A DNA stretch of 64,000 bases from Allomuricauda sp. (GTDB lineage Bacteria > Bacteroidota > Bacteroidia > Flavobacteriales > Flavobacteriaceae), in the NCBI GenBank assembly GCA_017795045.1, contig CP051244.1, positions 2,130,446 to 2,194,445 on the forward strand, in the 5' to 3' direction. The notes under the pieces are model-generated. The model was given only the letters and a program-made list of their open reading frames with translations. It did not search any database and was not told the DNA's origin. This document shows, piece after piece, positions 18,373 to 64,000 of the stretch. The position numbers and the translations under genes were made by a program. The first letter of the stretch is position 1. Each line of letters starts with the position of its first letter.

Positions 18373-18377
18373 AGTCC

Positions 18378-21065: not shown

Positions 21066-21079
21066 TCATTGATAAAAGC

Positions 21080-22429: not shown

Positions 22430-22437
22430 ATCTAATA

Positions 22438-24420
22438 ATGAAGAAAATAGCTTTTAAGCTCTTATGTTCCTTTATAGTACTTGTACCCATGTTGGTGTGC
22501 GGGCAGATAGAGTTGCCTCCCATTTTTTCTTCCCATATGGTATTGCCAAGGAATAAGCAAATTCCTCTTGAAGGGAAGGCAGAGCCAAGGACTACATTGA
22601 CCATTACCATTGGAAGCCAAAGCCATACGGCGAAAGCGGATAAAAATGGAGTTTGGAAAGTGAATCTGCAACCCATGGTTGCCGGAGGACCTTTCGTTCT
22701 CCAAATTGAAGATGATCAAGGGAGGGAATTGACATTGGACAACCTATTGGTCGGGGACCTATGGTTATGTGCAGGGCAATCCAATATGCAGTACACCCTG
22801 AACATGCTGCGGTATAAGGAAACCCCGGATGACAACTATGATTCTCCCAACCTTCGGTTGTGCTCGGTATGGGTAGACCGGGATTATCTTCCAAGAAAGG
22901 ATGTACCCAATGCCGTATGGCAGGAAGTGTCCAAGGAAACCGCCCGGAACTTTAGTGCCGTTGGATACTTTTTCGGGAAAAACCTAGTTGGGGAACAAGA
23001 AGTTCCCATAGGTCTCATCAGTAGTAATTTGGGGGCTACGGCCATAGAAACCTGGATGGGTATGGACGTTCTCAAGACATTTCCGCAGTTTGATGAGGTT
23101 ACGCAGAAGGTGGGTAAAATCAACAAAAGTTTTAAAACCCTGGATTCTGAATTGGAAAAGTTCAGAAAGAAATGGGATGATAAATATTATTTAAAAGGAC
23201 CTGGAATTGAGGGAAAATGGTACGAAGAAGGGTATGATTATTCCAATTGGGAAGAATGTACCTTGCCCGCTTTCTGGGATGATTTTGGGTACGCTTCACA
23301 TGACGGCAGCATGTGGTTTAAGCGAACCTTTGATTTGGACTCCGTTCAAATGGAAAACGATTTCAACATAGTACTCAACCAAATTGATGACTACGACAGG
23401 GTTTGGGTCAATGGGGTGCAAATAGGGGAGTCCTTTGGAAAAAGTAATTTCAGGAATTATTCCGCACCCAAGGACATCCTTCGGGAAAAAGGGAATATAC
23501 TTACGGTACGTGTCTTTGATGTTGGCGGGAAAGGAGGAATCTATACCAATGCTTTTTGGGGCAATTCCATCCTTAATGGGACTTGGAAATATAAAAAAGG
23601 CGTACGTATAGATAGCAGTCGGTTTCCCCAACCCGAAGTGGCCAATGGCAGTCCATTTTCGCACCCCATGCTCTTGTATAATGCCAGCATAGCTCCATTG
23701 CATAAAATACCCATAACCGGAGTAATCTGGTATCAAGGGGAATCCAATGAATCCAGGGCTGTGGAATATGGCTCCTTGTTACCGGCCATGATACAAGATT
23801 GGCGGAAGCAATGGAACAATCCTAAAATGCCTTTTTTGGTTGTTCAATTGGCAAACTATAGGCAAGAGGATGCTGAACCTAAGAATAGTCAGTGGGCCGA
23901 ATTGCGGGAGTCCCAAATGAAGGCCACCGAACTGGAGCATGTGGATATAGTGAATGCAATAGACATTGGGGATGCCAATGATATCCACCCTTACAACAAA
24001 AAAGAAGTGGGTAGGCGATTGGCCCTTTTGGCACAACACCATACCTATGGTAAAACCCTTAAAAAAAGTCCTGTTTTTAAAGGCAGCACCCTGTCGGATT
24101 CTATTATCACCATTGAGTTTGAGACCTATGGCAGTCCATTGAAAAGTATGGATAAGCATGGCTATGTAAGAGGTTTTGCCATGGCGGGAGCAGATGGAAA
24201 GTTTTATTGGGCCAAAGCCAAGGTTTTGAATGATACCCAAGTGGCGGTATATCATGGGGATATTAAAAAGCCAATGTATGTCAGGTATGCTTGGTCTGAT
24301 AACCCTGGACCATTGGATTTGGTAAATGCGGATGGACTCCCGGTCTTTCCTTTTAGAACCGATGATTTTGAGTTGAGTACAGAAAAGAATAGATATAGCT
24401 ACGATCCCCATGCATTTTAG
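22438..24420 (+). CDS. Sialate O-acetylesterase-like SGNH hydrolase
   Basis: A 660-residue exported esterase. An ATG at 22417 overlaps the previous gene, but the one at 22438 gives a standard signal peptide (MKKIAFKLLCSFIVLVPMLVCGQ). The SGNH block I is AGQSNMQ with Ser115; the Asp/His block is NDIHPYNK. The catalytic domain is interrupted at about residues 255-385 by a beta-galactosidase-like jelly roll (YSNWEECTLPAFWDD to DRVWVNGVQIGES), as in other Bacteroidetes members. It probably removes O-acetyl groups from the glycan so that the mannosidase can act; the name does not imply sialic acid here. Confidence 0.88.
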   Translation: MKKIAFKLLCSFIVLVPMLVCGQIELPPIFSSHMVLPRNKQIPLEGKAEPRTTLTITIGSQSHTAKADKNGVWKVNLQPMVAGGPFVLQIEDDQGRELTLDNLLVGDLWLCAGQSNMQYTLNMLRYKETPDDNYDSPNLRLCSVWVDRDYLPRKDVPNAVWQEVSKETARNFSAVGYFFGKNLVGEQEVPIGLISSNLGATAIETWMGMDVLKTFPQFDEVTQKVGKINKSFKTLDSELEKFRKKWDDKYYLKGPGIEGKWYEEGYDYSNWEECTLPAFWDDFGYASHDGSMWFKRTFDLDSVQMENDFNIVLNQIDDYDRVWVNGVQIGESFGKSNFRNYSAPKDILREKGNILTVRVFDVGGKGGIYTNAFWGNSILNGTWKYKKGVRIDSSRFPQPEVANGSPFSHPMLLYNASIAPLHKIPITGVIWYQGESNESRAVEYGSLLPAMIQDWRKQWNNPKMPFLVVQLANYRQEDAEPKNSQWAELRESQMKATELEHVDIVNAIDIGDANDIHPYNKKEVGRRLALLAQHHTYGKTLKKSPVFKGSTLSDSIITIEFETYGSPLKSMDKHGYVRGFAMAGADGKFYWAKAKVLNDTQVAVYHGDIKKPMYVRYAWSDNPGPLDLVNADGLPVFPFRTDDFELSTEKNRYSYDPHAF

Positions 24421-24480
24421 TGATGGATTGTAATGGTAAAATGAATAAATAACGGGTCTTGGAGCCTAAAAAGATGACAT

Positions 24481-25716
24481 ATGGAATACATAAAATCAAT
24501 ACGTTCTTTTAAGCAACAATGGATGGGCGTTGCGGCGATTACATTGTTGTGCACCTCCTGCGTTGACAAAAAAGAGACAAAAAAGAACGACAAGGACAGT
24601 GCACCGGAAGTAAATATTGCCATGGCAGGCGAATCAACAGAGTGGAGTGAACTCTTCATTAAAAATGAAGGATGGTTTGGAGGAGATGGCATTTTTGGAA
24701 TTCCTATGGATGGTAAGGAGTTTGTTCCGGCGACGGAGAGTACGGTGACGCTGTTTACTTTTGGGGATACTATGATTGGCCACCATGATGGGGAAACCCT
24801 CTTGCCGGAAGACTTTTTGATGATCAATAATTCGGTGGGTATCCTTACAGGAAAAGAACCGGATTCGGAAAAGATCACCTTTCACTGGAAACAAAGCAGT
24901 GAAGGTAAGGCCGAGGGCCTTTTCAAACCCAATACGCCAAACGCAAGACCACATGATTATTATTGGTTGGGGGATGGCTTTGTCAATACGGAAGGGGATG
25001 GCAACCTGTATATTTACGCATATCCTGTAAGGGAAAAAGACACCACCGGGATTGGTGGGTTCACGTTTGAGCAGGTAGGGGTGAACCTATTGCAAATTCC
25101 AAAGAACAGTCAACCTCCATATGTGGAGCATAAGCAATTGGAGACCCCATTTTTTGATTCGGAAACCCAAACCTCATTTGGTAGTGCCATTTACGTGAAT
25201 ACAGCGTCGGCAGGAGCACCTAACCCTGATGGATATATCTATACCTATGCAGTTTCCAACCAGGACGGGACAAAGGGACTATTGGTGGCCAGGGCCTTAC
25301 CGAAGGATTTTGTCAATTTTGGACAATGGAAATTTTGGAATGGGACCGATTGGGTGGCCAATATGGCAGATGCGGCATTGATTGCCAGGGATGTTTCCAA
25401 CGAAATGAGTGTTTCTCCGCTATCGGATGGCAGCATTATACTTGCCTACCAGCGTTACACCATGGGACCGGAAGTTGCCATACAAGTTGGGGAATCCCTT
25501 GTAGGACCATTTGCCGAGCCCAAAATTGTTTACAACACCACTGAAAATGACACGAACAAAACGTATTTCACCTATAATGCCAAGGCCTACCCGCATCTTT
25601 CCAAGCCGGGAAGCCTCTTGGCCAGTTACAATGTAAATTCATTCGATTTTTGGGCAGATATTTTAAAGGACCCCAACCTTTATCGACCTAGATTCCTTGA
25701 GATTCCTTTGGAATAG
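24481..25716 (+). CDS. Lipoprotein with five-bladed-propeller-like domain (DUF4185/DUF5005-like)
   Basis: A 411-residue lipoprotein (ITLLCTSC lipobox) with a Lys/Asp-rich linker. The mature part has features of a glycoside-hydrolase-like five-bladed propeller: GWFGGDGIFGIPMDG near the start, TLFTFGDTMIG (an Asp in a position often used in these folds), YYWLGDGFVN, a repeated YTYAVSNQ, and NEMSVSPLSDGSIILAYQRY. It resembles DUF4185/DUF5005 proteins, some of which are glycan hydrolases. It is the last rightward gene of the mannose locus. An uncharacterised glycoside hydrolase or binding protein are both possible. Confidence 0.6.
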   Translation: MEYIKSIRSFKQQWMGVAAITLLCTSCVDKKETKKNDKDSAPEVNIAMAGESTEWSELFIKNEGWFGGDGIFGIPMDGKEFVPATESTVTLFTFGDTMIGHHDGETLLPEDFLMINNSVGILTGKEPDSEKITFHWKQSSEGKAEGLFKPNTPNARPHDYYWLGDGFVNTEGDGNLYIYAYPVREKDTTGIGGFTFEQVGVNLLQIPKNSQPPYVEHKQLETPFFDSETQTSFGSAIYVNTASAGAPNPDGYIYTYAVSNQDGTKGLLVARALPKDFVNFGQWKFWNGTDWVANMADAALIARDVSNEMSVSPLSDGSIILAYQRYTMGPEVAIQVGESLVGPFAEPKIVYNTTENDTNKTYFTYNAKAYPHLSKPGSLLASYNVNSFDFWADILKDPNLYRPRFLEIPLE

Positions 25717-25720
25717 AATC

Positions 25721-26479
25721 TTAACGTTTAATGTCTATACTGTAGGTAAACTGATCGGCCCTATAATACCCAATATTGTATTCTATGGGCCTGTTACCGG
25801 GGTCGTAGACTACCCGTTTTCTTTGGAGAATGGCCGAGTTTACGGGCACCCCCAACTTTTCTGAAAGGGGTTTGTTGGCTAAAATGGCACTTATCTGTTC
25901 CCTTGAAAGTACTGGGACAGTATGGTATTCATGCTCCAAAATATCGTAGAGGTGGCGTCCAAAATCCTCATTTCCCGTGATGCCAATTCTGGGGTGAAAA
26001 TAACTTATGAAATACACAAAGGGCCCATTGTCCAATCCCCTGAGCCTTTCCAATTTAAAAACTTCCTGGCCTTCCTTGATTTCCAGTTCCCCGGCAATTT
26101 CAATATCGGCCATGATCTTGGAAACCTTGATCTCATAATTTCTGAAATCAATCCCCTGGGCATGCATCTCCTGACTAAAACTTACCCAATTGGACAGTTT
26201 GGTCTCGACCTGTTTTTTAGCCACTTTGGTACCAACTCCTTTTTTTCTGATTAAAAGTTTTTCCTGGACCAACCTATTGGTGGCTTGCCGGATAGTGTTC
26301 CGTGAAATACCAAGCCTTTTGGAGAGATCTACCTCTTTGGGCAAGAATTTTCCATTCTGGTATTCCGGGTCATTGATCATGTCACGGAGTATCTCCTCAA
26401 CCTGTAGATGTAGGGGCACAGGGCTGTCATGGTCTATGCTTAGGGACTTAAGGTTGTCCATGTTCTTTTGTTCAGACAT
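25721..26479 (-). CDS. GntR-family (HutC/UTRA) transcriptional regulator
   Basis: A 252-residue regulator. The winged helix-turn-helix is at about residues 18-85 (PVPLHLQVEEILRDMI, LPKEVDLSKRLGISRNTIRQATNRLVQEKLLIRKKGVGTKV). The C-terminal half is a UTRA ligand-binding domain (IKEGQEVFKLERLRGLDNGPFVYFISYFHP to VVYDPGNRPIEYNIGYYRAD), which usually binds a sugar phosphate or similar effector. It is convergent with the last gene of the mannose locus, four bases apart. It is the best candidate repressor for the TGAACATA sites at 5556 and 5747. Confidence 0.93.
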   Translation of the reverse strand: MSEQKNMDNLKSLSIDHDSPVPLHLQVEEILRDMINDPEYQNGKFLPKEVDLSKRLGISRNTIRQATNRLVQEKLLIRKKGVGTKVAKKQVETKLSNWVSFSQEMHAQGIDFRNYEIKVSKIMADIEIAGELEIKEGQEVFKLERLRGLDNGPFVYFISYFHPRIGITGNEDFGRHLYDILEHEYHTVPVLSREQISAILANKPLSEKLGVPVNSAILQRKRVVYDPGNRPIEYNIGYYRADQFTYSIDIKR

Positions 26480-44920: not shown

Positions 44921-46165
44921 ATGATTACAAGGAGAAAATTATTGAAAAACTTATCGGCTGTTCCGGTAGTAGGCGGATTGGTAGGTACCGGAATGGTATC
45001 GGCCTGTGAATTCAACAAGACCGACCCGGGAGCTGGAACAGAGGAACCGACCAGGAACTTTTTCGAGGAACTGGGCGTGACCCCGGTAATCAATGCGGGG
45101 GTTACCATGACCTTTTTATCGGGCTCATTGATGCGTCCAGAGGTTATGGCAGCCATTAACTCCACCGCCCATGATTTTGCCAATATGTACCAACTACAGG
45201 ACAAGGTAGGGGAAAAGATAGCCGAAATGCTTAACGTGGAAGCCGCTATGGTGACCTCGGGAGCAGCCTGCGCCATGGTATTGGGTACCGCTGCGACCAT
45301 AACAGGTATGGACCTGAAGAAGAGAAGGCAATTGCCGGACCTTCCCGATCCACGTCCGGAAGTTATTATGCAGAAAAGCCATAGATACGTATTTGATCAA
45401 GCAATCCCTACGGCAGGGGCCCGGATTGTAGAGGTTGATGGCGCGGAAGAAATGGAAGCCGCTATCAATGAAAATACAGTGATGGCTTTGTTCTTTAATG
45501 CGGCAAGAGGCCCCATTTCACACGAAGAGTTTGTAGCAATAGCCAAGCGCCATAATGTACCTACGTTTATTGATGCCGCTGCTGATGTACCCCCAAAGGA
45601 AAACTTGTTCAAGTTTCAAAAAATAGGTTTCGACCTGATTACTTTCTCAGGAGGAAAAATGATCAGGGGACCTCAGAGTGCCGGACTTCTTTTTGGTAGA
45701 AAAGACCTTATTGAAGCGGCCAAGTTCAACCATAGCCCCCATGAGGCTCCAATAGGTAGGCCCATGAAGGTCAACAAAGAGGAGATTTTTGGAATGTACG
45801 CAGCCCTTAAGGCCTATTTGGAAATGGATCATGAAAAGGAATGGCAGGATTGGCTGGATCGTATTGAGAACATTAAATCAAAGATAACTGCCGTTGAAAC
45901 GGTTAAGGGAGAGACCCATATCAGTCCTGGACCAGCAAATGCCTTTCCAAGTATGTTGGTGAGCTGGGATCAAGAAAAAGTGAAAATGAGCCCTAAAGAA
46001 GTAAGCGATGCCCTAAAAGCAGAGAACCCTTGCATATTTACCAATGTAAGACGTGGGAGAGATGGAGCCGAGGATCAACTGAGTGTGGGTGTTGTACTAC
46101 TTAAACCCGAACAGGTAGACTACGTGGCCGAACGTTTGGCCGACGTATTGAGTAAAGCCGTTTAA
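44921..46165 (+). CDS. Exported SelA-like PLP-dependent lyase (Tat-type lipoprotein)
   Basis: A 414-residue fold-type I PLP protein of the SelA-like/D-glucosaminate ammonia-lyase group. The PLP site is visible: Asp218 in PTFIDAAADVPP and Lys246 in TFSGGKMIRGPQSAGLLFG. The N-terminus is MITRRKLLKNL with a hydrophobic run and lipobox VSAC (Cys29), a twin-arginine lipoprotein signal, so the enzyme should act outside the cytoplasm. Members of this group remove ammonia or water from amino-sugar acids or similar compounds; selenocysteine synthesis is not implied. It follows the first ECF-linked SusCD pair and is closed by a terminator at 46279-46310. A longer paralogue lies at 61009-62643. Confidence 0.82.
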   Translation: MITRRKLLKNLSAVPVVGGLVGTGMVSACEFNKTDPGAGTEEPTRNFFEELGVTPVINAGVTMTFLSGSLMRPEVMAAINSTAHDFANMYQLQDKVGEKIAEMLNVEAAMVTSGAACAMVLGTAATITGMDLKKRRQLPDLPDPRPEVIMQKSHRYVFDQAIPTAGARIVEVDGAEEMEAAINENTVMALFFNAARGPISHEEFVAIAKRHNVPTFIDAAADVPPKENLFKFQKIGFDLITFSGGKMIRGPQSAGLLFGRKDLIEAAKFNHSPHEAPIGRPMKVNKEEIFGMYAALKAYLEMDHEKEWQDWLDRIENIKSKITAVETVKGETHISPGPANAFPSMLVSWDQEKVKMSPKEVSDALKAENPCIFTNVRRGRDGAEDQLSVGVVLLKPEQVDYVAERLADVLSKAV

Positions 46166-54223: not shown

Positions 54224-54259
54224 GCGGGTGGGAAAGCCAGTTTTCTCGCCCGCTTTTTT
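54224..54259 (+). terminator. Intrinsic terminator after susD
   Basis: A 12-bp stem beginning GCGGG and ending CCCGC (two G-U pairs, 5-base loop) is followed by six T at 54254-54259. It separates the SusCD pair from the downstream enzyme operon, which therefore needs its own promoter. Confidence 0.85.
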
Positions 54260-54549: not shown

Positions 54550-55722
54550 ATGCGACTCAATTCAATAGACATTCTGAGGGCGTTGACCATGGTTTTTATG
54601 ATATGGGTAAACGACTTTTGGACATTGGATAATGTTCCAAAATGGCTTTTGCATGCCAAGGCAAGTGAAGATTATTTGGGCTTTTCCGATATTATTTTTC
54701 CCTTGTTTCTTTTTATAGTGGGTCTCAGTATTCCTTTTGCGATCAAAAATCGCTTAAAGAAAGGGGACTCGCGTGCATCCATCGCAAAGCATATTCTAAT
54801 AAGGTCGTTCTCCTTACTCTTCATAGGAGTCTTCATGGTGAACTACGAAACCGCATTTAGTGAAGGCATGATGATTGGAAAATATCTTTGGTGTCTGTTG
54901 ATGGCCCTTGCTGTATTTTTGATATGGACCCATTATAAAAGAAGCCCAATTCCTAAAAAATGGCATCTCCCACTTCAAGTTTTGGGAATGCTCATATTCT
55001 TGTTTTTGGCCTTGATCTACAAAGGAGGTGCCGCTGGAGAGCATTGGATGCGTCCACAATGGTGGGGTATTTTGGGATTGATTGGGTGGGCCTATTTGGC
55101 AAACGCCTTGATTTTTCTATATGCAAGGGGGAATTTTGCTATAATGATTGTAGTTTGGATTCTTTTCAATCTGCTTTCAGTGTTGGCCCAAACCGATTTC
55201 TCTTTGGAATTGAATGGTCCATTCAGATACTTCTCAACTTTGATCGGGGGTACTATACCCGGATTGACCTCGGCAGGGATTTTGGCTTCATTGATTTTTG
55301 AAAGATATGCCAAAATCAGCCTGAAGCAAGTGTATAGTATTCTTGCGGTTTTGGGGATTGTATGTCTTGTTTATGCATTGGGGACTCGCCCATTATGGGG
55401 AATCTCCAAGTTAAGGGCAACACCCTCATGGCTGGCCGTGTGCTCTGCCATGGGTTTTTTCCTTTTTGCCCTTCTGCACTTTATCGCTGATAAGAAGAAA
55501 ATTACAAAATGGGCCAAGATCATCGCCCCGGCAGGAACGGCTACATTGACCTGCTATATGTTGCCGTATATTATTTATCCAATGCGGACATTTGTGGGCT
55601 TCACCTTGCCAGATGTTCTGAACACCGGGGTAATAGGGCTTTTGGGTTCCATGGTATTTGCCCTGCTCGTAGTTGCGATTACGGGATGGTTGGAGAAGAA
55701 AGGAATTAAACTCAAGCTATAA
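54550..55722 (+). CDS. DUF5009/HGSNAT-like transmembrane acetyltransferase
   Basis: A 390-residue polytopic membrane protein with about ten helices. The opening RLNSIDILRALTMVFMIWVND and the loop LLHAKASEDYLGFSDIIFPLFLFIVGLSIPFA match the family of human heparan-alpha-glucosaminide N-acetyltransferase; His35 sits where the family has a conserved loop histidine. HGSNAT moves acetyl from cytosolic acetyl-CoA across the membrane onto terminal glucosamine. Here the next gene encodes a hexosaminidase-like enzyme, so N-acetylating a free amino sugar end before cleavage is a sensible role. Bacterial members are poorly characterised, so the reaction is inferred. Confidence 0.75.
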   Translation: MRLNSIDILRALTMVFMIWVNDFWTLDNVPKWLLHAKASEDYLGFSDIIFPLFLFIVGLSIPFAIKNRLKKGDSRASIAKHILIRSFSLLFIGVFMVNYETAFSEGMMIGKYLWCLLMALAVFLIWTHYKRSPIPKKWHLPLQVLGMLIFLFLALIYKGGAAGEHWMRPQWWGILGLIGWAYLANALIFLYARGNFAIMIVVWILFNLLSVLAQTDFSLELNGPFRYFSTLIGGTIPGLTSAGILASLIFERYAKISLKQVYSILAVLGIVCLVYALGTRPLWGISKLRATPSWLAVCSAMGFFLFALLHFIADKKKITKWAKIIAPAGTATLTCYMLPYIIYPMRTFVGFTLPDVLNTGVIGLLGSMVFALLVVAITGWLEKKGIKLKL

Positions 55723-55732
55723 AAACAGGATT

Positions 55733-56815
55733 ATGGGGAGAAAAATAACATTGCTGATTTTGCTACTTGCCACCACCTTAGGTTTTGGTCAATCTTCATT
55801 TGCGGTGAGAGGCTTTTGTATAGCCGCCCCATCCAAGGACAAAGTAAACGATTTTGTAAAATTCATTGAAAATGAACTGGCTCCCGGTGGAATCAACACC
55901 CTTGTTCTGAGGGTCGATTACAATTATGCCTATGAGTCCAGGCCAGAGCTTAGGGATGAGAATCCGTTGAGCAAGGAAGATGTAAAGAAATTGCTTGCGG
56001 TGAGCAGAAAGCACAACATCAATTTGATTCCACAGGTCAATCTTTTGGGACACCAATCCTGGCATAGTGATTTGAGCAAACTTTTGGAGGCCTACCCAGA
56101 TTTTGACGAGACCCCAAATGTAAAACTTCCGGAAACATACGAATGGCCCAATGCCGATAGACTTTATTGTAAAAGCTATTGTCCGTTGCATCCCAAAGTA
56201 CATGATGTTGTTTTTGATATAGTGGATGAGATTATGGAGGTTTTCGAGGCCAACGCTTTTCATGCCGGTATGGATGAGGTGTTTTATCTGGCCCATCCAG
56301 ATTGCCCGCGATGCCAAGGAAAGGATCCTGCCATGCTTTTTGCAGGGGAAGTGAACAAAATAAGCGATCATTTACAGAAGAATGGTAAAGAACTATGGAT
56401 CTGGGGCGATCGTCTCATAGATGGAACGGATTCAGGAATAGGAATGTGGGAGGGAAGCTATAACGATACCGCCAGTGCAGTGGGGATGATTTCAAAATCC
56501 GTGGTCATTTGTGATTGGCATTATGAAAAGGCCATTCCCACGCCAGCCTATTTTGCCATGAACGGATTACAGGTTATTGCCTGTCCATGGCGTAGGCCCA
56601 ATGTAGCAGAACAACAAGTGGAAATGATGCACTCCTTCAAAGAAAATTCAACCCCTGAAATGGCTGAAAAATATTTGGGGGTAATGCATACAGTGTGGTC
56701 ATCCGCTGATTCATTTATGGAGAACTATTACAGTGAAAAACCGGATGAGGCCAGCGCAGGAGTGGTGAATACCCTAAAAGCAATGATTGCCGCAACACAA
56801 GAGATAAAGAACTAA
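55733..56815 (+). CDS. GH20-like beta-N-acetylhexosaminidase (exported)
   Basis: A 360-residue exported protein; ATG 55733 gives the signal peptide MGRKITLLILLLATTLGFGQ, while the open frame starts at 55673 inside the previous gene. It is a lone TIM barrel of the GH20 type: VRGFCIAAPSKDKVNDFVKFIENELAPGGINTLVLRVDYNY, then NLIPQVNLLGHQSWH, and HAGMDEVFYL with the paired Asp181-Glu182 that in GH20 assist the substrate acetamido group and donate the proton. The usual N-terminal GH20b domain is absent, so this is a short variant. It would release GlcNAc- or GalNAc-type sugars. Confidence 0.75.
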   Translation: MGRKITLLILLLATTLGFGQSSFAVRGFCIAAPSKDKVNDFVKFIENELAPGGINTLVLRVDYNYAYESRPELRDENPLSKEDVKKLLAVSRKHNINLIPQVNLLGHQSWHSDLSKLLEAYPDFDETPNVKLPETYEWPNADRLYCKSYCPLHPKVHDVVFDIVDEIMEVFEANAFHAGMDEVFYLAHPDCPRCQGKDPAMLFAGEVNKISDHLQKNGKELWIWGDRLIDGTDSGIGMWEGSYNDTASAVGMISKSVVICDWHYEKAIPTPAYFAMNGLQVIACPWRRPNVAEQQVEMMHSFKENSTPEMAEKYLGVMHTVWSSADSFMENYYSEKPDEASAGVVNTLKAMIAATQEIKN

Positions 56816-56852
56816 ACTAAAACCAAACAATAGAGTAATACCCTTGACTAAA

Positions 56853-58667
56853 ATGAGTAATTTTTTGAACCAAACTAGCCAATCAAACTTTAAATGCGCT
56901 AACCTAAGGCGTGTTTTTACGTATCCCTTACTTTGTATGATTGCCGCAATTTTTCTTGTACAATGTACCTCAAAGGACAATGGATTGCCCCCCGGAGACC
57001 CGGACAACGCAGGTCTTTTCGTCCCAGATGGATTTGAGGTTGTGGCCGTTGTGGACAGCTTGAAAGGAAGAGCCAGACACCTTACCGTGAATACCAATGG
57101 CGATATTTACGTAAAGTTGAGATTCCCAAATGATGAAGGCGGGAATGCAGCACTTCGGGATACCGATAATGACGGTAAGGCCGATATCATTGAAACATTT
57201 GATGATTATATAGACCGCAGTAGTTACGGAACCGAAATGCGTATCCACAATGGATATCTATACTTCAGTTCGGTAACACGGATCTACAGACAAAAATTAA
57301 CGGACCAATTGGTGCCCGATACCGAACTGGAATTGATCTTGACGGACAGACAGCCTCCAAGACAGCACGATACCAAGCCTATAGCCTTTGATAATGAAGG
57401 AAATTTGTATACCGTGTATGGCGCTCCCTCCGATGTTTGCCAAGTGGATGATAGATCACCATTGTCCCCGGGAATGTTCCCTTGTCCCATATTGGAAGAT
57501 AGGGCTGGGGTTTGGAAGTTTGATGCCAACAAACTGAACCAGTTTCAGGAAGATGGGGAGAAATTTGCTACAGGTCTACGAAGCGTTGTGGGAATGGATT
57601 GGAACGACCAAGACAACAACTTATATGCCGTGGTGCACGGAAGGGATTATATGCATCCCACATGGCCAACCGAATTTACACCTTGGGAAGGTTCCGTATT
57701 GCCTTCGGAAGTATTTGTGAGGCTTAAGGATGGGGATGATGCCGGATGGCCATACCACTACTATGACCAAATCAAAGGAGACTATTTCCTTAATCCCGAA
57801 TATGGTGGTGATGGCGAAAAACAAGGAGAGGATGTGGACAAATTGACCGATCCCGTTGTTGGGTTTCTTGGACATTTTGCACCCAACGATATTATGTTCT
57901 ATGAAGGAGATCAATTCCCAGAGCGATATAAGAATGGGGCCTTTATAGCTTTTCATGGTTCTACCAGTAGTGCCCCATACCCGCAAACCGGCTACTTTAT
58001 AGGTTTTGTTCCAATGGAAAATGGAATTCCAACAGGACCTTGGGAAGTATTTGCCGATGGTTTCGCAGAGCAGGAAATCATCAAGAACACCAGTGATGCA
58101 ATGTACCGTCCCATGGGATTGGCAGTTGGGCCTGATGGTTCTTTGTATGTGTCGGATTCCGAAAAAGGTAAGATTTGGAGAATCATGTACAAAGGGGATA
58201 AGGACGAATTTGGTGAAGCTGAACTGGCTGGGATGGAAGAGCGCAAAAGAACGGCTTCCAACATTAAAACCCCTGTTGAGTTTGAGGATATAGTTGTTCG
58301 GGATAAAGATGAAAAAAGCAAGTACAGTGATGAAAATATAGGTGAAGGTGGAAAGCTTTTCAATACCTATTGTTCGGTATGTCACCAACGAAATGGTTTG
58401 GGCAACGATCGTTTCCCTCCCTTGGACGATGCCGAGTGGATATTGGGTGATAAAACACGCTTGATCAATGTAGTGCTTCAAGGTCTTAGTGGAGAAATAT
58501 TTGTACACGAAAAGTCCTATAACAACGTAATGCCCAAGTTGGACAGACTTACAGATGAGGAGATAGCGGGTATATTGACCTATGTGCGCGGAAATTTTGG
58601 AAACAAGGGCTCAAAAATAACCCCAGAAGAGGTGGCTAAAGTGAGAAAGGCGAACGAAACACCATAG
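56853..58667 (+). CDS. PQQ-type sugar (sorbosone) dehydrogenase lipoprotein with C-terminal cytochrome c
   Basis: A 604-residue lipoprotein (IAAIFLVQC lipobox). ATG 56853 is preferred to a TTG at 56844. Residues about 50-460 form a beta-propeller of the L-sorbosone/soluble glucose dehydrogenase type (GLFVPDGFEVVAVVDSLKGRARHLTVNTNGDIYVKL, TGLRSVVGMDWNDQDNNLYAVVHGRD, DGDDAGWPYHYYD, MYRPMGLAVGPDGSLYVSDSEKGKIWRI). A c-type heme domain follows with CSVCH at 507-511. Such enzymes oxidise aldoses at C1 to lactones with electrons going to heme. In this operon the substrate may be an N-acetyl amino sugar. Confidence 0.87.
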   Translation: MSNFLNQTSQSNFKCANLRRVFTYPLLCMIAAIFLVQCTSKDNGLPPGDPDNAGLFVPDGFEVVAVVDSLKGRARHLTVNTNGDIYVKLRFPNDEGGNAALRDTDNDGKADIIETFDDYIDRSSYGTEMRIHNGYLYFSSVTRIYRQKLTDQLVPDTELELILTDRQPPRQHDTKPIAFDNEGNLYTVYGAPSDVCQVDDRSPLSPGMFPCPILEDRAGVWKFDANKLNQFQEDGEKFATGLRSVVGMDWNDQDNNLYAVVHGRDYMHPTWPTEFTPWEGSVLPSEVFVRLKDGDDAGWPYHYYDQIKGDYFLNPEYGGDGEKQGEDVDKLTDPVVGFLGHFAPNDIMFYEGDQFPERYKNGAFIAFHGSTSSAPYPQTGYFIGFVPMENGIPTGPWEVFADGFAEQEIIKNTSDAMYRPMGLAVGPDGSLYVSDSEKGKIWRIMYKGDKDEFGEAELAGMEERKRTASNIKTPVEFEDIVVRDKDEKSKYSDENIGEGGKLFNTYCSVCHQRNGLGNDRFPPLDDAEWILGDKTRLINVVLQGLSGEIFVHEKSYNNVMPKLDRLTDEEIAGILTYVRGNFGNKGSKITPEEVAKVRKANETP

Positions 58668-58693
58668 GGATAACCAATTAAACCACTTTTTTT

Positions 58694-59707
58694 ATGAAAT
58701 CTGTATATCGTATAACAATGGCTATTAAGAATATGGGCGTTTGCAATTGCTTCCGTAACTTTAGGCTGATGACCGTATGCTTCGTGTTGCTGTCCACGGC
58801 ATGCAAGCAAAAATCAAACGACCAGTCAACGTCCGAAGCACAGGAAAATAGCACTAAAGAAGAATCCACCTTGTATCAGAGCAGCGTTTTTACTGAACCA
58901 TCAGGTTTTACCGGAGGAATAGAAGGACCTGCTGTTGACGCAAACGGTATTCTTTATGTGGTGAATTTTGAAAAGCAGGGTACCATTGGTCAAGTGGATG
59001 CTGCGGGGAATGCCTCCCTCTTTGTCACCCTTCCCGAAGGAAGTATTGGGAATGGCATTCGGTTTAACAGCAATGGGGATATGTTCATTGCGGATTATAC
59101 CATGCATAATGTGCTAAAAGTGGATATGGATACCAAGGAAATCAGTGTTTATGCCCACAATGACGAACTGAACCAGCCCAATGATATCGCCATTATGGAC
59201 AATGATATCATCTTTGCCAGCGATCCCGATTGGGCCAATTCAAAAGGACAGATTTGGAGAGTGGAAGAGGGGACCTTTACCTTGCTCGAAGGAGATATGG
59301 GAACCACCAACGGTATAGAGGTAAGCCCGGACAACAAAACACTTTATGTGAACGAATCCGTCCAACGCAATATATGGGCCTATGACCTTTCCCCCGAAGG
59401 GGAAATCAGCAACAAACGTTTGCTGACCAAATTTGAAGATTTTGGAATGGACGGTATGCGTACCGATGCAGATGGGAATTTGTATGTGACCCGTCACGGA
59501 AAAGGTACCATTGCCAAGATATCCACAACAAGTGGGGAAATCCTTGAAGAGATTCCTTTAACAGGTAAAAAAGCTTCCAATATTGCATTTGGCGGTGAGG
59601 AGGGAACCCAGGCATTCATTACCCTTCAGGATAATGGCAATGTGGAGACCTTCACTGTGGAGAGTCCAGGTAGGGCATTCCAAATGATAAAAGAAAGAAA
59701 AGAATAA
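58694..59707 (+). CDS. SMP-30/gluconolactonase-like lipoprotein
   Basis: A 337-residue lipoprotein (CFVLLSTAC lipobox after a long n-region; MTVCFVLL may be the real start). The six-bladed propeller shows family elements: GGIEGPAVDANGILYVVNF with the metal-binding Glu, GNGIRFNSNGDMFIADY, QPNDIAIMDNDIIFASDP, TNGIEVSPDNKTLYVNES, and DGMRTDADGNLYVTRHGKG. Family members hydrolyse sugar lactones in a metal-dependent way. Directly after a PQQ aldose dehydrogenase, the expected job is opening the aldonolactone in the periplasm. Confidence 0.85.
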   Translation: MKSVYRITMAIKNMGVCNCFRNFRLMTVCFVLLSTACKQKSNDQSTSEAQENSTKEESTLYQSSVFTEPSGFTGGIEGPAVDANGILYVVNFEKQGTIGQVDAAGNASLFVTLPEGSIGNGIRFNSNGDMFIADYTMHNVLKVDMDTKEISVYAHNDELNQPNDIAIMDNDIIFASDPDWANSKGQIWRVEEGTFTLLEGDMGTTNGIEVSPDNKTLYVNESVQRNIWAYDLSPEGEISNKRLLTKFEDFGMDGMRTDADGNLYVTRHGKGTIAKISTTSGEILEEIPLTGKKASNIAFGGEEGTQAFITLQDNGNVETFTVESPGRAFQMIKERKE

Positions 59708-59724
59708 CATAATCTCATAATACA

Positions 59725-60972
59725 ATGAAAATACATAAATTAAAGTACGCACTTATTGCTTTGGCAGTCTTATTCTGTTCAAAGGCCGTTCAAGCACAGG
59801 AATATGATTTGGTGATCAAGAACGGAACACTTATCGATGCCAAAAATGGCATTAACAAGAAAATGGATGTGGCCATTTCAGAAGGGAAAATTGCTGAGGT
59901 TGCCAGTAACATATCGGCCAAGAAGGGTAAGAAAGTTATCGACGCCCAAGATAAATTGGTCACTCCGGGACTTATAGACCTTCACGGACACGTTTTCTTC
60001 GGAACCGAAGAGAATTCAATGTACAGCGGAGGGTCGCACAGTGTTGCCCCTGATAACTTTACCTTCCGAAGTGGTGTGACCACCATCGTGGACGCCGGTA
60101 GTGCAGGATGGCGTAATTTTCAGGTTTTCAAGAAAAACGTGATCGATGAATCCAAGACTCGGGTATTGGCATTTTTGAACATTGTGGGCTCCGGTATGAA
60201 AGGTGGTGTGATCGAGCAGAACGTTAACGACATGGATCCAAAAATGACTGCCTTGACCGTTGGAAGATACAAGGAGTTGGTAGGGGTAAAGTTGGCCCAC
60301 TATTCAGGATTCGAATGGACCCCAACAGAAAGAGCTGTTGAAGCAGGTAAATTGGCCGAAGTCCCCGTAATGATCGATTTTGGAGGAAGTAGACCTATGT
60401 TGTCCATAGAGACCCTGTTCATGGAAAAGTTAAGGCCAGGGGATATCTTCACACATGCCTATGCCTCATTGGGTAGCAGGGAGCGAGTGGTTGATGACCA
60501 AGGAAAAGTGAAGCCTTTTGTTTTTGAAGCCCAAAAAAGAGGGATTGTTTTTGATGTAGGCCATGGAGGAGGAAGCTTTGCTTTTTCACAAGCAGTTCCT
60601 TCCATGCAGCAAGGATTTAAACCCAATTCCATCAGTACTGACCTGCACATAGGAAGTATGAACGGTGGTATGAAGGATATGACCAACATCATGTCCAAGT
60701 TTTTGAACATGGACATGCCCGTAGCGGAAGTAATTGCCATTTCCACATGGAACCCTGCCCAATACATCAAGAGGACCGATTTGGGGCATTTGAGTGTTGG
60801 TGCCATTGCCGATGTGGCCATTCTTAGCATTGAAAAAGGAGAATTTGGCTTTGTGGACACAAAGAATGAAAAGATGATGGGAGATCAAAAGTTTCAGTGC
60901 GAGGTGACCCTGAAGGATGGAAGGGTAGTGTATGACCTTAATGGATTGTCCAGCAAAGAATGGGACAAATAA
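59725..60972 (+). CDS. Exported amidohydrolase, cog3964 type
   Basis: A 415-residue metallohydrolase with a Sec signal peptide (LKYALIALAVLFCSKAVQAQ). Metal-site features: PGLIDLHGHVFFG (His87, His89), VGVKLAHYSGFEW (bridging Lys and His), FDVGHGGGSFAF and STDLHIGS. It is a full-length paralogue of the genes at 1-772 and 774-2039. Characterised family members hydrolyse acetylated alpha-hydroxy or N-acetyl-D-amino acids; N-acetyl-D-glucosaminate has that D-configured alpha-acetamido acid. With the SelA-like gene next door, N-deacetylation of the aldonate is a reasonable guess. Confidence 0.87.
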   Translation: MKIHKLKYALIALAVLFCSKAVQAQEYDLVIKNGTLIDAKNGINKKMDVAISEGKIAEVASNISAKKGKKVIDAQDKLVTPGLIDLHGHVFFGTEENSMYSGGSHSVAPDNFTFRSGVTTIVDAGSAGWRNFQVFKKNVIDESKTRVLAFLNIVGSGMKGGVIEQNVNDMDPKMTALTVGRYKELVGVKLAHYSGFEWTPTERAVEAGKLAEVPVMIDFGGSRPMLSIETLFMEKLRPGDIFTHAYASLGSRERVVDDQGKVKPFVFEAQKRGIVFDVGHGGGSFAFSQAVPSMQQGFKPNSISTDLHIGSMNGGMKDMTNIMSKFLNMDMPVAEVIAISTWNPAQYIKRTDLGHLSVGAIADVAILSIEKGEFGFVDTKNEKMMGDQKFQCEVTLKDGRVVYDLNGLSSKEWDK

Positions 60973-61008
60973 AAATGACCAAACTAAAACAAACTAATAC
61001 TTAAAAAC

Positions 61009-62643
61009 ATGAGCATGAAACGAAGGGAAATAATCAAACAATTGGGCGTTGTTCCTGTAGCGGGAAGCCTAATGGCCAGCCAATCAATGCTTGGTGGTAC
61101 ATTGGGAAGTGTTACAGGTCCATTGATGACCAAGTCATCCAAAGGCCCCAGTATTTATGAATCCTTGGGGATAGACACCATTATAAACTGTAGAGGCACC
61201 TTTACCATATTGGGGGGCTCCACAGAACGTCCCGAGGTGATAGAGGCCATAGAAGCCGCGTCTGGGTACTTTGTACAATACGATGAGTTGGCCGAAGGGA
61301 TTGGCCGTCGTTTAGCGGAAATCACCAAGGCGGATTGGGGAATGGTCTCCGCAGGTTGCGCCGCAGGCATGAAACACGTTACAGCTGCCTGTGTGACCGG
61401 TGGAAACCCAGAAAAACTGATCAGAATACCCCATATTGATGATTTTGAGAAGAACGAAGTCATCATCCCAAGAAGTTCACGAAACTACTACGATCACGCT
61501 ATCCGAAATATTGGGGTAAAAGTGATCACCGTGGATTCGCCCGAAGAAATGAGGGAGGCCATTAACCCAAGAACGGCCATGATCTATATCATGACCGGGG
61601 ATGACAATGAAACAGGAAAACCACTTTCATTGGAAGTGATCAGTGAAATTGCCAAGCCAAAGAGCATTCCGGTCTTGGCCGATGCGGCCGCGGAAGATTT
61701 AAGCATCCCTTGCGTTCACTTGGAGCGTGGTGCCACCGTGGTTGCCTATAGTGGAGGAAAGGCCATTTGTGGACCACAGTGTGCAGGATTGTTATTGGGA
61801 GACAAAGACCTTCTTATGGCAGCATGGCAGGCCAGTTCGCCACACCATGGACCTGGAAGGGACAACAAAGTAGGAAAAGAGGAGATGTTGGGGATGTTGG
61901 CCGCTGTTGAGGCTTGGACGACCAGAGATCACGATAAGGAGTGGCAGACCTGGTTGGGTTGGTTGGATGAGATTTCTTCCAAGTTGACCAAAATTGATGG
62001 AATCACTTCAGAAGTGACCTTGCCCAAAGGCTTGAACAACAGGACCCCTAGGTTAATCTTGAAATGGGACCCGGACAAACTTCACATTACTGGGGAGGAA
62101 GTGGCCGAGGAAGTAGCCCGTAACAAACCAAGGATAGCCATTGGAGGTTGGAGTAGGGGAGACAGTACTTCCATCACCATCACCCCAAGCCAGATGCGTC
62201 CTGGAAATGCAAAAGTGGTTGCGGACAGATTGTATGACTTCCTTTCGCAAAAGAGAGAGCCAATTTCAGATGAAATGGCATCCCCAAGTGAGGATATCTC
62301 AGGTCATTGGGAAGCAGACGTAAAATACTTTACAAGCAATAGTACCCATAAATTTTATTTGGAGCAGGATGGTAACTGGATATCAGGTACGCACACCAGT
62401 GAAAATGGCAGTCAGGATATGATCGGTATGATCGAAGGGGACGAAGTGGTACTCCGAAGCAGTTTTAGGATTCCAGGAAATGGTGTCAATTTTTGGTTCA
62501 TTGGTAAGATTTCCAATGGAGAGCTAAGCGGTTCCGTATTCCTTGGGGAATATTTAACAGCCAAGTTTTCTGCCAAAAAGGTATCTTACAGGCAAAATCG
62601 TAAAAAATTGAATGTACCGGGAGGCCCACCATTGGCTACCTAG
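61009..62643 (+). CDS. Exported SelA-like PLP-dependent lyase with extra C-terminal domain
   Basis: A 544-residue fold-type I PLP protein. MKRREIIKQLGVVPVAGSLMASQSM is a twin-arginine signal. PLP-site residues are Asp225 (IPVLADAAAEDL) and Lys251 (VAYSGGKAICGPQCAGLLLG). The group includes D-glucosaminate ammonia-lyases of the DgaE type. Residues about 425-544 are a separate beta-rich domain (DISGHWEADVKYFTSNSTHKFYLEQDGNWISGTHTSENGSQDM to GELSGSVFLGEYLTAKFSAKKVS), absent from the shorter paralogue at 44921. Its likely job in this operon is removing ammonia from an amino sugar acid to give a 2-keto-3-deoxy acid. Confidence 0.83.
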   Translation: MSMKRREIIKQLGVVPVAGSLMASQSMLGGTLGSVTGPLMTKSSKGPSIYESLGIDTIINCRGTFTILGGSTERPEVIEAIEAASGYFVQYDELAEGIGRRLAEITKADWGMVSAGCAAGMKHVTAACVTGGNPEKLIRIPHIDDFEKNEVIIPRSSRNYYDHAIRNIGVKVITVDSPEEMREAINPRTAMIYIMTGDDNETGKPLSLEVISEIAKPKSIPVLADAAAEDLSIPCVHLERGATVVAYSGGKAICGPQCAGLLLGDKDLLMAAWQASSPHHGPGRDNKVGKEEMLGMLAAVEAWTTRDHDKEWQTWLGWLDEISSKLTKIDGITSEVTLPKGLNNRTPRLILKWDPDKLHITGEEVAEEVARNKPRIAIGGWSRGDSTSITITPSQMRPGNAKVVADRLYDFLSQKREPISDEMASPSEDISGHWEADVKYFTSNSTHKFYLEQDGNWISGTHTSENGSQDMIGMIEGDEVVLRSSFRIPGNGVNFWFIGKISNGELSGSVFLGEYLTAKFSAKKVSYRQNRKKLNVPGGPPLAT

Positions 62644-62707
62644 TCTTCAAAAAAATGTATACAATAGAAAAATAAACAAACCTTAAATCATTTTTAAACA
62701 TTGTAAT

Positions 62708-63190
62708 ATGGAAAATCAAACATCAAGAAGATCATCTTTCAAACGAATTGGAGTAGGATTGGCAGCTCTATTTGGAGTTGGGGCAACTGCTGCGGCAAAA
62801 GCCATGACCGGTGGGGAAAAAGCCAAAAAGGAAATAGTTGGAGATATTGTGACCGACCAAGATGTTCCTTTGTTCTCTGGAGCCGTAAAACATGGAAACA
62901 CTTTGTATATTGCTGGTAAAGGGGCTCACGTTGAACCTTTCGAAATAAAAGCACATACCAAAATTGTATTGGACAACATCCAAAAGGAATTGGAAAAGAA
63001 CGGTTCCTCCATGGATAAAGTGCTAAAAGTGAATGTATATTTGGCGGATCTTAACGATTACCACGCCATGAATGAAGTGTACCGTGGACGTTTCGGTAAA
63101 AACCCTCCTGTAAGAACTACTGTCGCTACCTATGGTGGTGTTCCTGGGGATTCCTTGGTGGAGATTGATTGTATAGCTGCTTTGGACTAA
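62708..63190 (+). CDS. Exported RidA-family imine/enamine deaminase
   Basis: A 160-residue RidA (YjgF/UK114) protein with an N-terminal extension. Residues 1-30 (SRRSSFKRIGVGLAALFGVGATAAAKA) are a twin-arginine signal, which RidA proteins normally lack. The core keeps the catalytic Arg136 in NPPVRTTVATYGGVPGDSLVEIDCIAAL and the matching Glu. RidA hydrolyses reactive enamines and imines released by PLP lyases. It directly follows the PLP lyase gene, so it should speed hydrolysis of that enzyme's product in the periplasm. Confidence 0.85.
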   Translation: MENQTSRRSSFKRIGVGLAALFGVGATAAAKAMTGGEKAKKEIVGDIVTDQDVPLFSGAVKHGNTLYIAGKGAHVEPFEIKAHTKIVLDNIQKELEKNGSSMDKVLKVNVYLADLNDYHAMNEVYRGRFGKNPPVRTTVATYGGVPGDSLVEIDCIAALD

Positions 63191-63218
63191 ACAAATAGTA
63201 CAAACGATTAACTTAAAC

Positions 63219-64000
63219 ATGATGAAACATATGTTCAAACTGAACATTGCCATAGTATTTTTATTTTTTATCTCAATAGGTCTGAAAGGTCAGACAATCC
63301 CAAAAGAGGAGTTGATTTTCTTGACTTCGGAATGGAAGGGTGAACGTTTTGATGACGGACGTCCACGGATTCCGGATGGCCTTTTGGAACGTGCTAAAAA
63401 AATTGGCATAGACGACGCTTGGACCGTACTCAATAACGAGGGGTATACCAACCAGTTCGAAGGGAATTGGAAAATGATCCATGACGATGTTCCAGTAGTG
63501 GGCCGTGCGCTAACGGCCATGTATATGCCAAGCCGACCCGATGTTGAAACTAACATCAAAGCGCGTGGACATGCTGAGGGCAGAAAAGGAAATACCAATT
63601 CCTGGCCCATCGATATGCTTACCCAAGGTGACGTTTATGTTGCGGATGGCTTCGGTAAAATTGATGCCGGTACGCTCATGGGAGCTACTTTGGCCACTTC
63701 AATTTTCAGCAAGTCTGGCAATGGTGTGGTCTTCAACGGGAGTGCAAGGGATTTGGAAACTGTCAAGGAATTGCAAGGTTTCAATGCTTTTGTACGGGAT
63801 TTCCATCCTTCCTTTTTGGAGGAAATGGTGACCATGGGACTCAATGTGCCCATCCGCATGGGAGCTGCCATAGTACTTCCCGGTGATTTGGTGATCGCCA
63901 AACAAGAAGGTGTCCTTTTTGTGCCCGCCCATTTGGCCGAACAAGTTGTGGCCACTGCAGAGTTTGTGGCCCTAAAGGATGTGTTCGGTTTTGAGATGAT
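63219..64000 (+). CDS. Exported RraA-like protein / class II pyruvate aldolase (partial, C-terminus outside window)
   Basis: At least 260 residues from tandem ATGs at 63219/63222, running off the right edge. A Sec signal peptide (LNIAIVFLFFISIGLKGQ) is followed by an RraA-type domain: GDVYVADGFGKIDAGTLMGATLATSIFSKSGNGVVFNGSARDLETVKEL, with the ARD metal-site motif, then MGAAIVLPGDLVIAKQEGVLFVPAHLAEQVV. In this superfamily are HMG/CHA aldolases, which cleave pyruvate from 4-hydroxy-2-oxo acids, and the RNase E inhibitor RraA. Export and the neighbouring genes favour an aldolase acting on a 2-keto-3-deoxy sugar acid. Confidence 0.82.
   Translation, partial: MMKHMFKLNIAIVFLFFISIGLKGQTIPKEELIFLTSEWKGERFDDGRPRIPDGLLERAKKIGIDDAWTVLNNEGYTNQFEGNWKMIHDDVPVVGRALTAMYMPSRPDVETNIKARGHAEGRKGNTNSWPIDMLTQGDVYVADGFGKIDAGTLMGATLATSIFSKSGNGVVFNGSARDLETVKELQGFNAFVRDFHPSFLEEMVTMGLNVPIRMGAAIVLPGDLVIAKQEGVLFVPAHLAEQVVATAEFVALKDVFGFEM

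Follow-up and report, generated by a model that had tools for sequence, protein, structure and literature searches.

A 12-gene run in Allomuricauda points to a possible exported-then-cytoplasmic route for the oxidative breakdown of amino sugars

Could a bacterium oxidize an amino sugar and strip it of its acetyl and amino groups before anything enters the cytoplasm, importing only the keto acid that is left? This question is raised by a locus at the right-hand end of a 64,000-nucleotide stretch of an Allomuricauda sp. genome (G000:C1:2130446-2194445, contig CP051244.1; hereafter the window), in which an earlier reading made from the letters alone (the sequence-only reading) had seen a periplasmic, non-phosphorylative pathway for an N-acetyl amino sugar. 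The gene run that suggested this pathway continues past the window's end to a total of 12 genes. We tentatively interpret these genes as an operon for an amino-sugar route that would start with exported enzymes and finish in the cytoplasm, through import of 2-keto-3-deoxygluconate (KDG), a KDG kinase (KdgK) and a 2-keto-3-deoxy-6-phosphogluconate (KDPG) aldolase (Eda), an interpretation to which the sequence evidence lends a chance just short of even.

The eight genes within the window lie on the + strand between positions 54550 and 64000 (window numbering is used unless stated otherwise), in the order and with the families given by the sequence-only reading. Pfam and NCBIfam profile searches with their cut-offs agreed with those families, the gene for the pyridoxal phosphate (PLP) protein scoring below the model cut-offs, and the nearest solved proteins were taken from a PDB sequence search. 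The run begins with a membrane acetyltransferase resembling HGSNAT and NagX (54550..55722; HGSNAT_cat PF07786, 35.5 bits against a cut-off of 22), which may acetylate glucosamine in the periplasm, and a GH20-like beta-N-acetylhexosaminidase that appears to be exported (55733..56815; PF00728, 60.6 bits, cut-off 22.3). Then come a putative lipoprotein sugar dehydrogenase with an AA12-like pyrroloquinoline quinone (PQQ) propeller and a cytochrome c domain (56844..58667; GSDH 37 bits, cut-off 25, and Cytochrom_C 34.2, cut-off 21.3), an exported SMP-30/gluconolactonase-like lipoprotein that may open the lactone (58694..59707; SGL PF08450, 132 bits, cut-off 26.3) and an exported amidohydrolase, a candidate aldonate N-deacetylase (59725..60972; NF006689/PRK09237, 442.6 bits, cut-off 371). 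The last three genes of the window encode a PLP enzyme of the SelA/DgaE fold with a C-terminal beta domain, apparently exported by the twin-arginine (Tat) system and a candidate glucosaminate ammonia-lyase (61009..62643); a Tat-exported RidA that may hydrolyze the imine (62708..63190; Ribonuc_L-PSP PF01042, 76.2 bits, cut-off 27.3); and an exported RraA-like protein of uncertain role, which is cut by the window's end and is 310 residues long in the genome (63219..64000; PF03737, 66 bits, cut-off 24.5). Beyond the window lie four further genes, with genome positions computed from an adjoining stretch (L007): a DUF4440 lipoprotein (2194623-2195117; PF14534, 55.5 bits), a BASS-family symporter (2195178-2196284; PF01758; PDB 3zuy, 232.5 bits), a KDG-kinase-like protein (2196338-2197384; nearest PDB entry 2afb, a 2-keto-3-deoxygluconate kinase, 327.5 bits, E 7.1e-97) and a KDPG/KHG aldolase (2197411-2198085).

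The intergenic gaps across all 12 genes are at most 64 bases. In addition, the run is flanked by the longest terminator-like stem on the + strand of each of the two scanned stretches: one at 54224..54253, after a SusD gene (13 pairs, 7 of them G-C, then TTTTTTGTTT), is the likely upstream boundary, and the other, at 4116-4150 of L007 (16 pairs), follows the Eda gene, with weaker sites of 5–8 pairs inside genes. The 12 genes are likely, we infer, to form one transcript.

In the route that we propose, a 2-acetamido sugar of the gluco type, most likely N-acetylglucosamine (GlcNAc), would be the starting point, with the GH20-like enzyme releasing it or the HGSNAT-like protein forming it from glucosamine. 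The PQQ-type dehydrogenase would oxidize this sugar at C1 outside the cytoplasm, its cytochrome domain handing on the electrons, after which the SMP-30 protein would open the lactone to N-acetylglucosaminate and the exported amidohydrolase would take off the acetate. The Tat-exported PLP enzyme would then eliminate water and ammonia, with RidA aiding the hydrolysis of the imine to KDG. Finally, the BASS symporter would import KDG, which KDG kinase would convert to KDPG in the cytoplasm for cleavage by Eda to pyruvate and glyceraldehyde-3-phosphate. The exported middle steps, their order (dehydrogenase, lactonase, deacetylase, ammonia-lyase, RidA) and the amino-sugar substrate were all part of the sequence-only reading and find support in the sequence; the term 'non-phosphorylative' finds little such support, as a KDG-kinase-like gene and a KDPG aldolase gene follow in the same run.

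Export was judged from leader sequences, called by eye and with a home-made rule (for the GH20 leader and the lipoboxes, by eye only). Each of the seven products after the HGSNAT-like gene carries a Sec, lipoprotein or twin-arginine leader, as the sequence-only reading had claimed for every soluble product. Sec leaders are found on the GH20-like protein, the amidohydrolase and RraA, lipoboxes on the dehydrogenase and the SMP-30 protein (labeled TatRR and Sec, respectively, by the rule) and twin arginines on the PLP protein and RidA; TatC is encoded in the genome. The KDG-kinase-like protein and Eda have no signal peptide by the home-made rule. Relatives of the PLP protein, RidA, the amidohydrolase and RraA were collected as BLAST matches with coverage of at least 60% and identity of at least 40% (30% for the PLP protein). 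By the rule, 99 of 109 PLP sequences and 24 of 26 RidA sequences (the window's included) have a twin arginine, the other two RidA sequences having R-K; the ten PLP sequences scored as lacking a Tat signal include two with an RR leader behind an open reading frame start placed too early (L067, L116) and one cut by a contig end (L090). Two PLP sequences (L057 and L084) seem to be without a leader. The leader R-R is invariant in all 18 aligned PLP proteins, a full-length set picked by hand from the window's own genome and eight others, with at least one fragment (L033 4059-4739) excluded. Leaders of the 82 amidohydrolase sequences were distributed as 64 Sec, 7 TatRR, 5 lipoprotein and 6 none, and all 12 RraA sequences have one.

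A 500-residue model of the PLP protein (pLDDT 89.2) has the SelA/DGL fold in a VIA-align structure comparison, with an added eight-strand C-terminal domain, and its Schiff-base lysine is invariant in both sets of sequences aligned (18/18 and 27/27). With the ammonia-lyase system linked to the phosphotransferase system (PTS), the operon shares a related PLP enzyme and an Entner-Doudoroff exit. In that system, however, the substrate is taken up and phosphorylated by the PTS, whereas the operon's PLP protein lacks the His162/163 pair and has kept the phosphate arginines at most in part. Because the PLP protein would be exported and a kinase is encoded downstream, its substrate is probably unphosphorylated, although a phosphorylation state is not itself readable from sequence. 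By its missing His signature and its scores on the DgaE/SelA-related models (150.2 bits against a cut-off of 385.3 and 128.1 against 600), the protein falls outside the ammonia-lyase family, yet it may work like that lyase. Another Tat-type SelA-like PLP gene, 35% identical to that of the operon, occurs at 44921-46165 of the window, directly after a SusC/SusD-like pair, and a second exported RidA-like family (PF14588) occurs in nine of the loci that were clustered (for example, L050 11679-12254 and L008 12675-13262).

Glu77 and Asn163 of the SMP-30 protein are retained in 13 of 13 sequences, and the occurrence of PF10282 lactonases and PF04909 proteins near the PLP gene in other loci would be consistent with different families serving the lactone step. 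In the amidohydrolase, the HxH motif, His244 and Asp306 are present in 80 of 80 sequences (two of the 82, of at most 350 residues, were excluded from this count), and position 189 is Lys in 70 and Arg in 10. Position 218, which an alignment to 8je0 puts opposite a Cys, two before a His, is acidic in all 80 (61 Asp, 19 Glu); judged by eye, this acid might stand in for a metal-binding His. The enzyme passes the NCBIfam cut-off for PRK09237-type amidohydrolases, for which we take cog3964 to be another label, and keeps their HxH, His and Asp; unlike the reference kind, it and most of its relatives appear to be exported. Tandem pairs of amidohydrolases of the two types (Asp or Glu at position 218) were observed in L044, L045, L046, L048, L050, L051, L055, L062, L071 and L078. 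Because these loci have no SMP-30 match, the Glu type may take over the role of the lactonase there, to which L028, with both a Glu-type gene and an SMP-30 gene, is a counter-example.

For the dehydrogenase, sequence comparison was less informative than structure: it scores 40.4 of 122.2 bits on TIGR02604, and its PDB sequence matches lie mostly over the cytochrome. Its predicted structure (pLDDT 79.1) has the propeller fold of the AA12 PQQ pyranose dehydrogenases, which are the best Foldseek matches (6i1t, 6h7t, 6jt5 and 6i1q; E 6e-22 to 2e-21, probability 1.00, TM score by target 0.72–0.75), followed by soluble PQQ glucose and aldose dehydrogenases at E about 1e-14. All 10 sequences compared have His131, Arg202 (within G-L-R-S) and the heme motif CxxCH, and by motif the catalytic His and Arg of AA12 appear to be retained. 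The AA12 enzymes differ in having a cytochrome b at the N terminus, whereas the operon's protein has a cytochrome c at the C terminus. Homologues of the AA12 domain are described as widely distributed in bacteria in the accessible text of one study (PMC4332668). At the opposite end of the window, two amidohydrolases of the same family as the operon's (1-2225, - strand) stand divergent from a membrane-bound, glucose-type PQQ dehydrogenase (2299-4497, + strand), a quinoprotein that scores 449 of 832.65 bits on TIGR03074.

How would the route end? Eda passes the curated KDPG aldolase model NF005499 (364.5 bits, cut-off 275). The kinase falls below its curated cut-offs (495.1 of 700 bits on NF041633, a fusion model, and 209.3 of 440 on NF041332) and, though its nearest PDB entry is 2afb, is therefore filed as KDG-kinase-like instead of as a certified member. 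Since the run ends with the KDG kinase and KDPG aldolase genes, KDG is predicted to be the compound imported. BASS proteins transport small organic acids, and plant members carry pyruvate (BASS2) and chain-elongated 2-keto acids (PMC10645422). At two places compared in 14 BASS sequences with keto-acid transport in mind, that of Thr112 is Val in 6, Leu in 5, Met in 2 and a gap in 1, and that of Asn265 is Asn in 13 and a gap in 1, a pattern that does not decide the substrate.

The sequence-only reading had let the pathway end outside the cytoplasm, with the RraA-like protein as an aldolase yielding pyruvate and glyceraldehyde. RraA-like HMG/CHA aldolases have the motif D-x20-R-D. Its Arg-Asp pair is retained in 12 of 12 RraA sequences, and its first Asp is Ala in the window's protein and in L043, Ser in L063 and Asp in the other nine. 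The pair corresponds to the catalytic Arg123 and the metal ligand Asp124 reported for the HMG/CHA aldolase (PMC5065237, in the portion available), which keeps the aldolase assignment alive, while the replacement of the motif Asp by Ala weakens it. If RraA did split KDG outside the cytoplasm, the BASS protein would import pyruvate, as plant BASS2 does, and KdgK and Eda would serve another sugar acid. The leader on all 12 RraA sequences and the full motif in nine of them would suit this alternative, as would the closeness of the RraA and BASS genes, which are adjacent or one gene apart in all 12 loci seen with both (the window, L028 with L030, L037-L040, L043, L055, L059, L062, L063 and L071). 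However, KdgK and Eda are encoded in the same gene run, and the motif Asp is Ala in precisely the two loci, the window's own genome and L043, where KdgK and Eda are encoded after RraA and BASS. We consider cleavage by RraA outside the cytoplasm distinctly unlikely and have rejected periplasmic pyruvate and glyceraldehyde as the main ending.

A galacto-type sugar is another candidate substrate. GH20 enzymes may release either GlcNAc or N-acetylgalactosamine (GalNAc), and several paralogous modules in one genome (there are four copies of the PLP gene in this one) suggest several substrates. An operon for GalNAc or another 2-acetamido sugar, with KdgK and Eda acting on the corresponding epimer, would be in line with the kinase's matches, below cut-off, to models of bifunctional KDG/KDGal kinases. 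Against it stand the nearest solved kinase, which is named a KDG kinase, and the aldolase's pass on the KDPG aldolase model, and we regard it as very unlikely.

The kinase and aldolase of the proposed KDG exit were probably recruited to the operon, because the kinase occurs in G398, G426 and G497 in what we take to be uronate operons. KDG kinase matches were found in eight of the nine genomes with a PLP gene. In G109, a close kinase (84%) and an aldolase (79%) sit one gene away from a same-family dehydrogenase (L131), apart from that genome's cluster of PLP, RidA, RraA, BASS and amidohydrolase genes. The window's genome has a second KdgK-like gene (39%), accompanied by what by eye is an Eda-like gene, in the neighborhood of an amidohydrolase and an AA12-like dehydrogenase (L009 1936-9979); this cluster also contains an L-lactate-permease-like transporter (PF02652, 601 bits) and is perhaps a parallel route with another importer.

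The genes of the proposed core recur together in other genomes. At E <= 1e-40, 3 of the 246 genomes searched in the order and 8 of the 395 searched in the phylum have the PLP gene (the window's own genome counts in both). Related PLP loci were also taken from Bacteroidota, Acidobacteria, actinobacterial and Chloroflexi-type records, namely the best 80 of 587 confirmed places, a sample biased to close relatives in which neighbors were sought at E 1e-15; 40 of the 80 loci span less than 21.4 kb, which makes every count of absent genes an upper limit. Among the 80, we found an amidohydrolase in 38, a lactonase-type gene in 17, RidA in 16, RraA in 8 and BASS in 6, and any dehydrogenase in 19 (11 AA12-like, 5 other GSDH and 5 quinoproteins like that at 2299-4497). 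One locus, L043, from a metagenome-assembled contig that starts inside the dehydrogenase gene, has the same order as the operon: dehydrogenase, SMP30, amidohydrolase, PLP, RidA, RraA, DUF4440, BASS, KdgK, Eda. In nine genomes chosen for having the PLP gene, 16 of the 19 amidohydrolase genes have a PLP gene at a distance of no more than 15 kb. Actinobacterial triplets of PLP, RidA and amidohydrolase genes occur in L100, L114 and L121, their RidA proteins with twin-arginine leaders.

These loci invite a broader proposal, that Bacteroidota, Acidobacteriota and actinobacteria generally oxidize and deaminate amino sugars with exported enzymes. A PLP-loaded, Tat-exported ammonia-lyase and RidA would act with an exported deacetylase and interchangeable dehydrogenases and lactonases, acetate and ammonia being removed outside and the keto acid alone being imported, with paralogous modules for different 2-acetamido sugars. 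We see in this a real possibility with the balance tilted against it.

A number of observations, gathered in this and the next two paragraphs, count against the proposed route. At the places of His162/163 of the ammonia-lyase (PMC9529869, in the part available), the operon's PLP protein has Gly-Asp or Asp-Asp, depending on the alignment, and His occurs in one row per place in each set of relatives. By sequence, it has lost part of the phosphate-arginine cluster: Asp stands in for Arg226 (9 of 18 and 10 of 27 relatives have Arg there), Arg301 has an Arg counterpart (as in 1 of 18 and 5 of 27) and, where the C-terminal alignment is unsure, place 332 is Trp or Asp and place 346 is Ser or a gap. 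In the VIA-align comparison the protein fits Cap15 as well as it fits the ammonia-lyase. It might accordingly be an oxygen-dependent enzyme of the Cap15 kind, in a pathway with a product other than KDG; we think this highly improbable, given that the 18-sequence profile scores the lyase at 209.7 bits versus 181.1 for Cap15 and that RidA, KdgK and Eda suit an ammonia-lyase. For the dehydrogenase, the reported AA12 PQQ ligands are His363, Arg430 and Asn431 (PMC6881789, accessible part); the place of Asn431 is seemingly Ser, and His131 and Arg202 were equated with the AA12 ligands by motif, not by superposition. A profile comparison with canonical GSDH aligned the cytochrome part only, the dehydrogenase being remote in sequence from characterized GSDH, and in the text found of PMC4332668 the AA12 sugars assayed include neither glucosamine nor GlcNAc. 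No PqqE match above cut-off was found in any of the nine genomes, a search in which 0 of 14 controls passed either and which thus has no positive control, so that PQQ would need to be scavenged from outside; PQQ import is reported to be widespread in Gram-negative bacteria in the available portion of PMC12124388. As for the later steps, RraA has no clear step in the pathway, and ketopantoate gave no stabilization of the Neisseria ASBT in the part of the source at hand. Terminator-like sites number 13 in the window stretch, below the 17.0 of shuffled sequences, so the count itself is no evidence for the operon (in L007 the figures are 8 and 2.7). A sigma-70 promoter scan was uninformative for both stretches (22 sites versus 29.6 in shuffles and 5 versus 5.3, respectively).

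Many PLP loci lack parts of the chain. No amidohydrolase was detected in 42 of the 80 and none of the neighbors sought in 32; 50 have neither dehydrogenase nor lactonase and 6 have both; Eda occurs in 5 and KdgK in 2. The exported core might instead act on N-acyl-D-amino acids or similar 2-acylamino acids, the sugar genes being a separate function. Besides the 50 loci without either sugar gene, this alternative could draw on OngC, a cytoplasmic counterpart that also deaminates D-serine and D-threonine (PMC9537276, in the part available). It is hard to square with a single gene run that holds the dehydrogenase, lactonase, KDG kinase and KDPG aldolase, or with the occurrence, around the core in other loci, of three known or possible lactonase families and as many types of dehydrogenase, and we consider it unlikely.

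The assignment of GlcNAc likewise depends on this lineage, since the GH20 and HGSNAT genes lie outside the recurring core. At E 1e-15 neither was found in any of the 80 PLP loci (BLAST found one HGSNAT-like gene, in L049), and the stretches taken around eight other GH20 loci contain neither an amidohydrolase nor a PLP gene, so the pair was rejected as part of a recurring core. The sequence-only reading had named a failure of these genes ever to co-occur in homologous loci as a reason to abandon the pathway; the core does co-occur there, without GH20 and HGSNAT. In two of the eight other GH20 loci, HGSNAT stands next to GH20 (L123 5595-8174 and L125 8026-10374) with no oxidative core in the stretch taken, and the operon thus seems to be a combination of three parts, a hexosaminidase and acetyltransferase pair, the oxidative core and a KDG exit. 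The GH20-like protein matches 8bal, a beta-N-acetylhexosaminidase, at 267 bits, with the D-E of HAGMDE aligned with HVGLDE, and its gene probably starts at ATG 55733 instead of TTG 55673; the TTG open reading frame overlaps the preceding gene. On the NagX model NF046061 the HGSNAT-like protein scores 18.9 of 480 bits. The genome also has a NagB-family gene (230 bits), so a cytoplasmic amino-sugar route may exist as well.

The closest described route is the ong pathway of Pseudoalteromonas prydzensis, in which, according to the available parts of two papers (PMC9537276; PMC12017989), N-acetylglucosaminate (GlcNAc1A) is converted to glucosaminate (GlcN1A), KDG and KDG-6-phosphate by OngB, OngC and KdgK. 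Its RidA is essential with a role given as unknown, and the pathway was placed in Gammaproteobacteria and one betaproteobacterium (PMC9537276). The likeness includes aldonate deacetylation, PLP-dependent deamination to KDG and an upstream GH20 enzyme, as well as a RidA partner and a KDG kinase, both of which were found in the operon. OngB is a deacetylase of the D-aminoacylase type, and the best family for the operon's amidohydrolase is PRK09237. The differences, as far as the ong papers could be consulted, are several. OngB and OngC are predicted to be cytoplasmic, whereas Sec and Tat leaders are predicted on the operon's deacetylase and deaminase and on most of their relatives. OngC is of fold type III and the operon's PLP enzyme of the SelA/DGL fold. 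In ong the acid comes from an AA10 lytic polysaccharide monooxygenase (LPMO) and is imported by an SSS transporter, in contrast to the dehydrogenase and BASS transporter of the operon. No LPMO_10 (PF03067) match was found in the Allomuricauda genome, rated 92.5% complete (1 of 14 control genomes matched), so the dehydrogenase would have to produce the aldonic acid, unless it is imported as such. Differing in location, PLP fold, transporter and origin of the acid, the operon would represent a variant of oxidative amino-sugar catabolism, not a member of the ong group.

If the proposed route is correct, a whole amino-sugar catabolic chain, including PLP-dependent deamination with a RidA helper, works outside the cytoplasm, as a convergent alternative to the ong pathway. 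The release of nitrogen from chitin-like and glycan residues would be reassigned in Bacteroidota and perhaps Acidobacteriota, and many exported proteins of the SelA-like and RidA kinds would gain a function. A literature search found no report of an exported version of this route, most subscription journals being outside its coverage.

Downstream of Eda come a gene for an exported TIM-barrel protein and one for tRNA-Arg (L007 5240-5314); the tRNA is followed by genes that by eye resemble mobilization or relaxase genes, as in an integrated mobile element (L007 5240-9849 with the tRNA). Elsewhere in the window, a cluster at 14887-26479 encodes an FG-GAP protein, a ROK-domain protein of unusual length (895 residues), a sugar MFS transporter, a SASA-esterase-like protein and a DUF4185 lipoprotein, with a divergent regulator that is GntR-like by eye.

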